Assembly (NCBI GenBank): GCA_021324545.1
Contig: JAJPIX010000022.1
Span: 1 to 52,121, forward strand
Length of the DNA: 52,121 bases
Source: Alphaproteobacteria bacterium
GTDB taxonomy: Bacteria; Pseudomonadota; Alphaproteobacteria; Micropepsales; Micropepsaceae
Direction: 5' to 3'
The position numbers and the translations under genes were made by a program. The stretch's first letter is position 1. Each line of letters begins with the position of its first letter. Positions 24,717-30,066 of this stretch are shown in pieces. The notes under the pieces are model-generated. The model saw only the letters and a list, made by a program, of their open reading frames with translations. It had not been told where the DNA came from and ran no database searches.

Positions 24717-26126
<1,410 letters not shown>

Positions 26127-26128
26127 TC

Positions 26129-27145
26129 ATGCCCGCGATGAACATGATCCAGGCGCTCAACTCCGCCCTAGACGTGATGATGGCGAAAGACCCCAATGTT
26201 CTGGCCTATGGCGAAGATGCGGGCTATTTCGGCGGCGTCTTCCGCGTGACCGACGGCCTGCAGAAAAAATACGGCCTGACGCGCGCCTTCGATTCCCCCA
26301 TCAGCGAAGGCGGCATCATCGCCACCGCCATCGGCATGGGCGTCTATGGGCTGCGGCCCGTGGTGGAGGTGCAATTCGCCGATTACATCTATCCCGGCTA
26401 CGACCAGATCGTGTCGGAAGCCTCCAAGATCCGCTATCGCTCGGCGGGCGAATTCTTCGTGCCGATCACCATCCGCACGCCCTATGGCGGCGGCATCTTC
26501 GGCGGGCAGACGCACAGTCAGAGCCCGGAGTCGCTTTTCACCCACATCGCCGGAATCAAGACGGTCATCCCGTCCAATCCCTATGATGCCAAGGGCCTGC
26601 TCATCAGCGCCATCGAAGACGACGATCCGGTTGTCTTCTTCGAGCCCAAGCGCATCTATAACGGGCCGTTCAGCGGCCATCACGATCAGCCGGTCCTGCC
26701 GTGGGCCAAACATCCGGCCAGCGATGTGCCCGAAGGCCATTACACCGTGCCGCTCGGCAAGGCGGCCGTTGTGCGGCCGGGCAACGATCTCACCGTGCTC
26801 GCCTACGGCACGATGGTGCATGTCTCGCTCGCGGCCGCTGCCGAGAGCGGAATTGATGCGGAAGTGATCGATCTGCGCACGCTGGTCCCGGTCGATATCG
26901 ACACGATCGTGGAGTCGGTGAAGAAGACGGGCCGCTGCGTGATCGTGCATGAAGCGCCGCGCACATCCGGCTATGGCGCAGAGCTTTGCGCGCTGGTCCA
27001 GGAAAACTGTTTCTGGCACCTGGAAGCGCCGATTGCCCGCGTGACGGGCTTTGACACGCCCTATCCGCACGCTTTCGAATGGCATTATTTTCCCGGGCCG
27101 AAACGTGTGGGCGAGGCGATGAAGCGCACGATGGAGACACGCTGA
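26129..27145 (+). CDS. bkdA2: Branched-chain 2-oxoacid dehydrogenase E1 beta
   Basis: Beta subunit that completes the E1 heterotetramer with BkdA1. It is 338 aa, normal length. Family features are MNMIQALNSALDVMMAKD, YGEDAGYFGGVFRVTDGLQ, FDSPISEGGIIATAIGMGVY, EVQFADYIYPGYDQIVSEA and HSQSPESLFTHIAG, with C-terminal RVTGFDTPYPHAFEWHYFP. The start ATG lies 2 bases after the bkdA1 stop, and the stop overlaps the E2 start by one base, so the four bkd genes are one operon. Confident assignment to the BCKDH subclass follows from the E1 alpha and LpdV neighbours. Confidence 0.95.
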   Translation: MPAMNMIQALNSALDVMMAKDPNVLAYGEDAGYFGGVFRVTDGLQKKYGLTRAFDSPISEGGIIATAIGMGVYGLRPVVEVQFADYIYPGYDQIVSEASKIRYRSAGEFFVPITIRTPYGGGIFGGQTHSQSPESLFTHIAGIKTVIPSNPYDAKGLLISAIEDDDPVVFFEPKRIYNGPFSGHHDQPVLPWAKHPASDVPEGHYTVPLGKAAVVRPGNDLTVLAYGTMVHVSLAAAAESGIDAEVIDLRTLVPVDIDTIVESVKKTGRCVIVHEAPRTSGYGAELCALVQENCFWHLEAPIARVTGFDTPYPHAFEWHYFPGPKRVGEAMKRTMETR

Positions 27146-28476
27146 TGGGCCGCTATGTGTTCAAGCTGCCGGATGTCGGCGAAGGCACGGCGGAGGCCGA
27201 AATCGTAGCCTGGCATGTAAAGCCGGGCGATGTGATCGCCGAAGACCAGCACCTGGTCGATGTGATGACCGACAAGGCGACGGTGGAAATGACGTCGCCG
27301 GTTTCCGGCAAGGTGGTGTCGGTGCATGGGGAGCCCGGCCAGATGGCGGCGGTCGGTTCGCCGCTGGTCGAGCTGGAAGTGGAAGGCACAGGCAACGTGG
27401 CCGGTAATGGCGCGTCCAAGTCCAAACCTCAAGCTTCCCTCGCCCCCGCAAGGGGAGAGGGCAGGGGTGAGGGGGTTGTTCCCTTCAAATCGCAAAAGGC
27501 CGAAACGAAAAAGTCCGAACCGCAAGCGCCCTCTCACCCCAACCCTGTCCCCCAAAGCGGGAGAGGGAATGACGTGGCTGTTCAACCGCGCACCTTCGGC
27601 GAAAAGCCGGTGGCCTCGCCTGCCGTGCGCAACCGCGCGCATGAACTGGGCATCGAGCTGCAATATGTGCAGGGCACCGGCGAAACCGGCCGCATCACGC
27701 ATGAAGATCTGGACAATTACATCGCCTCGGGCGGCCGTCATGCGCGTGCCGGCGGCGGCGCGGGCTATGCGAAACGCGAGGGCATCGACGAGATCAAGGT
27801 GATCGGCCTGCGCCGCAAGATCGCCGAGAAGATGCAGGAATCCAAGCGCCGCATCCCGCACTTCGCCTATGTCGAGGAAATCGACATGACGGCGCTGGAA
27901 GACTTGCGCGCGCATCTGAACGCGAACCGCCGCGAAGGCCAGCCCAAGCTCAACGTGCTGCCGTTCCTGATGCGCGCGCTGGTGAAGCTCCTGCCGCGCT
28001 ATCCGCAGATCAACGCGCGTTTCGACGACGAAGCCGGCATCGTGCATCGTTATGCGCCGGTGCATATCGGCATCGCCACGCAGACGGCCAACGGGCTCAT
28101 CGTGCCGGTTGTGCATCACGCGGAGGCGCTCGACATCTGGCAAAGCGCTGCCGAAGTCTTGCGCGTTTCCACCGCAGCGCGCGAGAACAAGGCGACGAAG
28201 GACGAACTGTCGGGCTCCACCATCACCATCACCAGCCTCGGCGCGCTGGGCGGCCTCGTCACGACGCCCGTGATCAACCACCCGGAAGTCGCCATCATCG
28301 GGCCGAACGCGATCATCGAGCGGCCGGTGGTGCGGGGCGGCCAGATCGTCATCCGCAAGATGATGAACCTGTCGTCTTCGTTCGATCACCGCGTGGTGGA
28401 TGGCTATGACGCGGCCGATTTCATCCAGAAGCTGAAAGGCCTGCTGGAGAACCCGGCGACCCTGTTTCTGGATTGA
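27145..28476 (+). CDS. bkdB: Branched-chain 2-oxoacid dehydrogenase E2 (dihydrolipoyl transacylase)
   Basis: Core of the complex, 443 aa. The lipoyl domain is at about 1-80 with the lipoylated Lys44 in VMTDKATVEM. The E3/E1-binding domain is at about 157-195 (SPAVRNRAHELGI; GETGRITHEDLDNYI). The catalytic domain runs from about 210 to the end with DHRVVDG. The linker between lipoyl and binding domains, roughly residues 98-142, is unusual: its DNA is a palindromic genomic repeat inserted in frame, and the protein there reads as Gly/Glu/Pro/Ser-rich low-complexity sequence. The domains on both sides are intact, so the enzyme is probably functional. The start overlaps bkdA2 by one base. Confidence 0.95.
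   Translation: MGRYVFKLPDVGEGTAEAEIVAWHVKPGDVIAEDQHLVDVMTDKATVEMTSPVSGKVVSVHGEPGQMAAVGSPLVELEVEGTGNVAGNGASKSKPQASLAPARGEGRGEGVVPFKSQKAETKKSEPQAPSHPNPVPQSGRGNDVAVQPRTFGEKPVASPAVRNRAHELGIELQYVQGTGETGRITHEDLDNYIASGGRHARAGGGAGYAKREGIDEIKVIGLRRKIAEKMQESKRRIPHFAYVEEIDMTALEDLRAHLNANRREGQPKLNVLPFLMRALVKLLPRYPQINARFDDEAGIVHRYAPVHIGIATQTANGLIVPVVHHAEALDIWQSAAEVLRVSTAARENKATKDELSGSTITITSLGALGGLVTTPVINHPEVAIIGPNAIIERPVVRGGQIVIRKMMNLSSSFDHRVVDGYDAADFIQKLKGLLENPATLFLD
27436..27568. repeat. Palindromic repeat inserted in frame in bkdB
   Basis: Arms 27436-27475 and 27529-27568 form an imperfect inverted repeat of the TCCCTCKCCC...GGGAGAGGG type that usually occurs between genes in proteobacterial genomes. 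Here it lies wholly within the E2 coding sequence, is read without stops and adds about 45 codons to the interdomain linker. Confidence 0.7.
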
Positions 28477-28497
28477 ACGCAAAAAGCGAAATGAAAA

Positions 28498-28615
28498 ATT
28501 CACGCGGAGGCGCGGAGCCGCGGAGTTTCAAAGTCCGAATTGTTGCAAAAAGCGCAGCAGAAGCGATAGCGGACCGGACGTGTTCAAGGATGTTCCTCCG
28601 CGCCTCCGCGTGAAT
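28498..28615. repeat. MITE-like palindromic element, CACGCGGAG family
   Basis: A 118-bp element between bkdB and lpdV with perfect 20-bp terminal inverted repeats (28498-28517 and 28596-28615; core CACGCGGAGGCGCGGAG). The same arm motif recurs at 51304-51437 and 51506-51645. It contains no gene and separates lpdV from the rest of the bkd operon. Confidence 0.75.
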
Positions 28616-28662: not shown

Positions 28663-30066
28663 ATGGCTGAGATGATCAAGACCAAACTCCTCATCGTCGG
28701 CGGCGGGCCGGGCGGCTATGTTGCCGGTATCCGCGCGGGCCAGCTCGGTATCGAGACCGTTCTGGTGGAGGGCGGCCGCTTGGGCGGCACCTGCCTCATC
28801 CGCGGCTGCATCCCATCGAAGGCGTTCATCCATGCCGCGGGCCAATTCGAGGACATGCGCAAGGCGGCAGGCCCGGGCCTGCACGGCATCGCGCTCAAAT
28901 CGCAACCGGAGCTGAACTTCGCCGAACTGGTGAAATGGAAGGAAGGCATCGTGGACCGCCTGAACAACGGCGTGACCGGGCTGCTCAAGCGCGCCAGGGT
29001 GCGCGTGATTTCCGGATGGGCGAAATTCTCCGATGCGAAAACCTGCACGGTTGCGGGAAAAGATGGCGACATCACCGTTACGGCCGAGCATGTAATCCTG
29101 GCCAATGGTTCCAAGTCGGTTGAGCTGCCGTTCCTGAAATTCGGCGGCAATGTGATTTCTTCGACCGAAGCGCTGATGCTGCCGGAATTGCCGAAAAAGC
29201 TGGTTGTGGTGGGCGCGGGATATATCGGGCTCGAAATGGGCATTGCCTTCCGCAAATTCGGCAGCGAGGTCACGGTGGTGGAAGCGCTCGACCGCATCCT
29301 GCCGCTTTACGATGCGCAGCTCACCGCACCCGTCGGCCGCTGGCTCAAGGAACACGACGTCACCGTCATGCTCGGCGCGAAAGCAAAAGGCCTGGCCTCG
29401 AACGGCGGTCTCACGGTCGAAGACAGGGACGGCAAGACCACCGACATTCCCGCCGACAAAATTCTCGTCACCGTCGGCCGCAAGCCGAATACGGAAGGCT
29501 GGGGTCTGGAAAACATGGGCGTGGACATGGCCGGCCGCTTCGTGAAGGTGGACGACCAGTGCCGCACCTCCATGCGCGATGTGTGGGCCATCGGCGACCT
29601 CGTGGGCGAACCGATGCTGGAGCACAAGGCGGCCACACAGGGAGAAATGGTGGCGGAAATCATTGCCGGCCACAAACGCCGCTTCGATCCGGCGTCCATT
29701 CCGGCCGTCTGCTTCACCGAGCCGGAAATCGTCAGCGCCGGATTGCTGCCAACCGATGAAGCCGCCAAGGCACAGGAGATCGTGCAGTCCATCTTCCCCT
29801 TCGGGGCCAACGGGCGCGCGCTTTCCATGGATGCCGGCGACAATGGCGGATTCGTGCGCGTGATTGCGCGCAAGTCCGATCACCGCATCCTGGGCATCCA
29901 GGCCGTTGGCGCGCATGTGGCAGAGCTGTCGGGGGAATTCTCGCTGGCGCTCGAAATGGGCGCGACGCTGGAAGACATCGCGGGCACCATCCATGTGCAT
30001 CCCACGCTCAGCGAGGCGTTTCACGAATCGGCCCTGCGCGCATTGGGGCAGCCGATCCATATCTGA
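28663..30066 (+). CDS. lpdV: Dihydrolipoyl dehydrogenase (E3, LPD-Val type)
   Basis: FAD flavoprotein that reoxidises the lipoyl groups of the branched-chain complex, 467 aa. FAD motif LLIVGGGPGGYVAGIRAGQL; redox-active disulfide in GGTCLIRGCIPSKAFIHA (CX4C); NAD motif VVVGAGYIGLEMGIAFRKFG; and the C-terminal dimer-interface base in GTIHVHPTLSEAFHESAL. It resembles Pseudomonas LpdV more than the pyruvate/oxoglutarate enzyme. The start was chosen by family alignment. It is separated from bkdB by 186 bases holding a palindromic element, so it may rely on read-through or its own promoter. It converges on the histidine kinase gene. Confidence 0.95.
   Translation: MAEMIKTKLLIVGGGPGGYVAGIRAGQLGIETVLVEGGRLGGTCLIRGCIPSKAFIHAAGQFEDMRKAAGPGLHGIALKSQPELNFAELVKWKEGIVDRLNNGVTGLLKRARVRVISGWAKFSDAKTCTVAGKDGDITVTAEHVILANGSKSVELPFLKFGGNVISSTEALMLPELPKKLVVVGAGYIGLEMGIAFRKFGSEVTVVEALDRILPLYDAQLTAPVGRWLKEHDVTVMLGAKAKGLASNGGLTVEDRDGKTTDIPADKILVTVGRKPNTEGWGLENMGVDMAGRFVKVDDQCRTSMRDVWAIGDLVGEPMLEHKAATQGEMVAEIIAGHKRRFDPASIPAVCFTEPEIVSAGLLPTDEAAKAQEIVQSIFPFGANGRALSMDAGDNGGFVRVIARKSDHRILGIQAVGAHVAELSGEFSLALEMGATLEDIAGTIHVHPTLSEAFHESALRALGQPIHI

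Follow-up and report, generated by a model that had tools for sequence, protein, structure and literature searches.

An inverted pair of putative triplex-motif repeats within the coding sequence of an alphaproteobacterial E2 linker

Palindromic repeats in the proteins of Rickettsia and repetitive extragenic palindromes (REPs) inside genes are precedents that are already known. The Rickettsia palindromic elements are multicopy sequences of about 150 bp, reported in frame in unrelated proteins (Ogata et al., 2000, 2002, as cited in PMC10969869 and PMC3733652). GTAG/CGTC REPs are described inside genes of several species, with more than half of them occurring as dimers or grouped, and include an intragenic copy in recB of two Xanthomonas at about the same site; the authors suggest that a flexible linker or loop may be a neutral site for such an insertion (Di Nocera et al., 2013; PMC3733652). 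In Coxiella, small palindromic MITEs termed QMITEs are reported to sometimes extend or enter proteins in frame (PMC5896051). The closest element by sequence is TM_ECO of Escherichia coli MG1655, a potential intrastrand triplex described as having 23 copies, always intergenic and including five inverted pairs (Holder et al., 2015; PMC4666352).

Here we describe a related inverted pair that is read in frame within a 2-oxoacid dehydrogenase E2 gene. It lies in a 52,121-nucleotide stretch of an alphaproteobacterial genome (the window; contig JAJPIX010000022.1, assembly GCA_021324545.1).

The E2 gene and its inverted pair

The relevant features of the window are as follows.
24744..26126, plus strand: E1-alpha open frame, start unsettled; matches NCBIfam TIGR03181 under its cut-off
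25937..27145, plus strand: E1-beta open frame; matches NCBIfam NF006667 under its cut-off
27145..28476, plus strand: 2-oxoacid dehydrogenase E2 gene, 443 aa; Pfam PF00364, PF02817 and PF00198
27435..27475, plus strand: unit 1, hairpin CCCTCGCCCC/GGGGAGAGGG followed by GGGGTGAGGGGG; its translation includes LAPARGEGRGEG
27476..27528, plus strand: coding stretch between the units, 53 nt
27529..27569, minus strand: unit 2, inverted and partly decayed; its translation includes PSHPNPVPQSGRG
28663..30066, plus strand: E3, dihydrolipoyl dehydrogenase; matches TIGR01350 over its cut-off

The E2 frame (27145-28476) runs without interruption over its full length, and Pfam places a single lipoyl domain at residues 6-77, an E3-binding domain at 155-189 and the catalytic domain at 215-442. 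None of the 11 NCBIfam models listed, including those for pyruvate dehydrogenase (PDH) and 2-oxoglutarate E2, reached its cut-off with this protein. It is probably of the branched-chain type (BCKDH) and lies in the gene order E1-alpha, E1-beta, E2, E3. The true E1-beta start probably lies near 26129, and the E1-beta stop overlaps the E2 start. Two further observations concern the surrounding DNA. A 472-aa open frame on the minus strand (27085-28503) spans the whole E2 gene and is probably a by-product of high G+C. The E2-E3 intergenic region holds a perfect 20-bp inverted repeat, ATTCACGCGGAGGCGCGGAG, at 28498-28517 and 28596-28615 with 78 nt between the arms, which looks like another palindromic element.

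The arms of the inverted pair in E2 (27435-27475 and 27529-27569) are 41 nt each, 76% complementary and 53 nt apart. A covariance model of the unit sets the edges at 27436-27475 (plus) and 27529-27568 (minus), reproducing the interval 27436-27568 that an earlier, sequence-only reading had assigned to an inverted repeat. The pair is in frame and corresponds to residues ~97-142 of E2. Given the Pfam positions, the ~45 inserted residues fall between the lipoyl and E3-binding domains; the same reading had proposed this in-frame translation, and the open frame and domain positions bear it out. Each unit comprises ~40 nt, a G/C hairpin followed by GGGGTGAGGG. Units 1 and 2 score 61.1 and 50.4 bits, respectively, against the unit model, whose training units include both.

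When at most two mismatches are allowed, the core pattern GGGAGAGGGNNNGGGTGAGGG is present at two places in the window, one in each arm, compared with a mean of 0.00 in 100 shuffles. With at most three mismatches it has 21 matches in the whole genome, eight of them with 0 or 1 mismatch, compared with 12 for the reversed pattern. The covariance model was therefore used in place of the three-mismatch pattern, which is only weakly specific genome-wide. As single-stranded RNA, positions 27430-27575 have a folding energy of -69.7 kcal/mol (z = -4.6); a search of the whole window against Rfam at the gathering threshold gave no match. In a structure predicted from a 16-sequence alignment, residues 86-145 all have pLDDT < 50, and the insert lies inside this segment.

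By sequence comparison, each unit appears to be the TM_ECO/PIT intrastrand triplex motif of E. coli. The CCCTC[G/T]CCC hairpin arm, the GGGAGAGGG arm and the third stretch GGGTGAGGG are all present, as seen in an alignment to three Table 1 sequences and in the 17-unit consensus. In the alignment of unit 1 to E. coli TM no. 3, 32 positions are identical, 4 are mismatched and 3 are gaps, and the two differ almost only in the hairpin loop. Inspection of the 17-unit consensus found no unpaired GTAG or CGTC end tag.

A dispersed family with coding copies

The unit model was built from 17 units, including both window units. In the window's own genome (G000; 2.7 Mb, 68 contigs) it gave 15 hits, representing 14 distinct units at nine sites; the eight sites other than E2 reach E-values down to 3.1e-11. 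According to a codon-score gene call, two of the nine sites fall within genes, those for E2 and for a hydantoinase A/B fusion, one lies over the 3' end of ribF and six are intergenic, one of the six overlapping a script-chosen start by ~13 nt. The suggestion that this repeat is normally found between genes thus agrees with its genomic distribution. At least one unit was found in 33 of the 69 genus genomes examined. For two of these (G013 and G034) 34 non-E2 loci were fetched and the unit was seen in 29, of which 21 are between genes, three over a gene end and five inside an open frame. Two of the latter five were left out of the coding tally: a copy at residues 14-27 of an M16 peptidase in G013, which probably precedes the true start, and one in PrmC of the same genome, a weak unit at about 30 bits.

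Coding copies occur in several other proteins. The PDH E2 of G013, which matches TIGR01349 over its cut-off, contains a pair at residues 115-148, between its lipoyl (4-77) and E3-binding (160-194) domains, and the near sisters G027 and G028 each have a single in-frame unit in a PDH-type E2 linker. G034 has an in-frame pair in RsmB and a single unit in an acyltransferase, while G011 has an in-frame single unit in CtaA. Among 21 PDH or other E2 loci (20 E2-type regions plus locus L208; 13 parsed by script), three have the unit by the model, one of them having been chosen because it carried the unit. Two PDH-type E2 linkers (L284 of G022 and L285 of G004) contain other inverted repeats of the CCCTCCCCTGAAAGGGG type, as good as which none of 60 shuffles scored.

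A hydantoinase orthologue is present in 31 of the 69 genus genomes, and 20 of these were inspected. One loop of this protein carries the triplex-motif pair in four species (G000, G076, G028 and G085) in three phase combinations, the phase in G076 being read codon by codon. These insertions are therefore probably separate, unless compensating indels shifted the phase. In G022 and G029 this loop has one unit or a decayed one; it holds a second palindromic family (B) in G061, G089 and G033, and a third (C) in G074 and G064. The three families were told apart by inspection and because the unit model did not hit the loops with family B or C. The loops of G069 and G027 look alike and are candidates for family B, and that of G070 was left out of the repeat classes. 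Loop length, parsed in 16 of the 20 genomes, is 37-61 aa in the nine that hold a repeat and 23-26 aa in the six repeat-free ones (G004, G078, G034, G005, G023 and G020); G022, with its single unit, has 29 aa.

Copies of families B and C are scattered over the genomes that have them. Family B was found in all seven genus genomes searched, with loop copies at loci L255, L256 and L259; it gave 86 hits in G061, 53 in G089, 95 in G033, 25 in the window's genome and 14 in G034 despite the empty hydantoinase loop of the last. Family C gave 16 hits in G074 and two in G064. All of these counts include both strands, since the queries are palindromic, and many hits cover only part of the query. The hydantoinase loop provides the cleanest evidence for separate insertions at one place.

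The mode of spread was considered through transposases and flanking sequences. The REP-associated transposase (Y1_Tnp, PF01797), which goes with GTAG families, was absent from G000, G013, G034 and G011. It occurs in 18 of 60 sampled genus genomes with no clear link, by eye, to unit number. A RAYT transposase was rejected as the mover because Y1_Tnp is lacking in the window's own genome and in the unit-rich G013 and G034. Examination of 25 pairs revealed no convincing target-site duplication: 18 have no flanking direct repeat of at least 3 nt, five have one of 3 nt and two have one of 4 nt. By eye, a T precedes the element in 24 of the 25 pairs and an A follows it in 22.

E2 linkers within and beyond the genus

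An orthologue of the E2 gene (E <= 1e-80) is present in 38 of the 69 genus genomes. Loci were obtained for 34, two of which (G061 and G033) break at the linker, leaving 32 readable. The broken contigs, L202 (G061) and L024 (G033), end in or near the E2 linker, as expected if a repeat sits there. Units occur in seven of the 32 readable linkers, complete in G000, G013, G034, G002, G011 and G076 and as a pair cut by the contig end in G069, so other species share the insert. The other 25 are without the unit by the model, although one of them (G004) has by eye an apparent single decayed unit. The expectation that the insertion would be missing from relatives is therefore borne out within the genus, and the same linker was not found conserved in distant relatives.

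Both arms stand in one common codon phase in all seven E2 copies; several rows of the phase table report the hairpin arm, which lies 12 nt before GGGTGAGGG and hence in equal phase. The stretch between the units is 53 nt here and, by eye, about 22-27 nt in the five other complete E2 copies. A 15-nt between-unit stretch, GTGTC(G/T)AAGTCTGCG, is common to G013, G034 and G076 and absent from the rest of 297 loci compared. On the E2 tree, presence of the pair requires five changes, at least three of which are forced by well-supported branches, and one gain by simple descent therefore needs several losses. In a first set of relatives, same-genus linkers measure about 34 to 81 aa without the pair and 78-85 aa in complete ones with it. 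Because these lengths overlap, presence of the insert cannot be equated with 45 added residues, and no clean empty site in the E2 linker was found among that set.

Beyond the genus, 80 named E2 loci, including some genus members, yielded 96 linker segments of usable length. A strong inverted repeat, better than all of 100 codon shuffles, was detected in 11 of them compared with one of 96 equally long catalytic-core controls; under a looser test, which let at most one of 40 shuffles do as well, the number had been 15. The 11 comprise G013 again (L061), six linkers of Brevundimonas (L083, L094, L097, L112, L113 and L114), two of Caulobacteraceae/Caulobacterales (L099 and L125), one of Hyphomonadaceae (L078) and one of an alphaproteobacterium (L082). 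The element in L113 has 9-64 hits in each of ten Brevundimonas/Caulobacterales genomes, counting both strands and many partial matches. In another family, a pair akin to the unit, its members scoring 44.0 and 31.3 bits, lies in the E2 of G047, whose genome has 39 hits. The same protein stretches are thus repeatedly hit by different palindromic families.

Origin of the coding copies and comparison with known systems

The best reading of these data is that dispersed palindromic elements insert widely and that in-frame insertions survive in disordered linkers. For the window, we consider it probable (about 0.88) that an inverted TM_ECO/PIT-type pair of a dispersed family entered the part of the E2 gene that encodes the linker. 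Its retention would be explained by a reading phase free of stops, together with a disordered linker that tolerates changes in length. E2 function is presumably unaffected, with tolerance that is neutral or nearly neutral. The tolerance at a flexible hinge put forward in the sequence-only reading is consistent with the low predicted confidence across the insert and with the other repeats held by the linkers of other lineages.

The history of the E2 copies is open to two accounts. The seven same-phase copies suggest that the pair was gained once or a few times and then lost several times, perhaps with homogenisation. A serious rival, which we regard as possible but doubtful, is that the E2 copies arose by separate recent insertions into the same linker and share their phase because selection favoured a tolerable Gly/Pro-rich peptide. 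The varied phases in the hydantoinase loop argue for it, as does the presence of the pair in G069 and its absence from the near sister G064. So does the mean identity of the E2 units, 83.5% over six species compared with 59.5% at fourfold sites of the same genes, a contrast inflated by the low complexity (G/C runs) of the units. Seven copies in one phase would, however, arise with a chance of only about 2 in 100,000 if phases were equally likely (plain arithmetic, with two stop-free phases for one arm and three for the other), and the between-unit stretch confined to G013, G034 and G076 likewise speaks against separate origins.

It is very unlikely that the repeat stretch is kept for a function at the RNA or DNA level, such as a hairpin that slows the ribosome between two domains. 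The hairpin is strong and the units are more conserved than fourfold sites; however, 25 relatives are without the pair, unit 2 is decaying in its own genome, and the identity that G/C-run composition inflates would be equally expected from homogenisation or recent insertion. A broader proposal, itself unlikely, would have E2 linkers and the hydantoinase loop as convergent landing sites of several families, with the hairpin kept in some lineages, where it would slow the ribosome between domains. That a Pro/Ala/Gly-rich linker in a G+C-rich genome looks palindromic by chance is close to negligible. Such linkers are of low complexity, one catalytic-core control scored too, and the three-mismatch pattern has its background of 12; against this, none of the 100 window shuffles yielded the pattern at two mismatches, and the unit model recovers the family at the eight other genome sites.

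Under the insertion reading, a class of repeat that was reported from E. coli only between genes writes protein sequence in alphaproteobacteria. Linkers reused by different repeat families form a natural experiment that can reveal where a protein takes up some 15-60 additional residues, and how palindromic repeats are spread with no evident transposase.

Among the titles and opening parts of abstracts in one open-access library, we found no report of such repeats in E2 linkers and none of TM/PIT elements in coding sequence. As far as these searches show, what is new is the triplex-type unit in coding form, together with linkers and a loop that different families have hit repeatedly. Compared with the systems described so far, the GTAG/CGTC REPs belong to another sequence class, and their account stresses genes of DNA replication and repair (PMC3733652). 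The Coxiella QMITEs are likewise palindromic and sometimes in frame with proteins; as described, they are MITEs and concern other proteins (PMC5896051). The parallel with Rickettsia palindromic elements drawn in the sequence-only reading is valid as an analogy, both being in frame, multicopy and present in several unrelated proteins (here E2, PDH E2, hydantoinase, RsmB and CtaA). Like TM_ECO/PIT, the units described here also occur as inverted pairs (PMC4666352). Unlike E. coli TM_ECO, reported there as always intergenic, the pair in this E2 gene is protein-coding.
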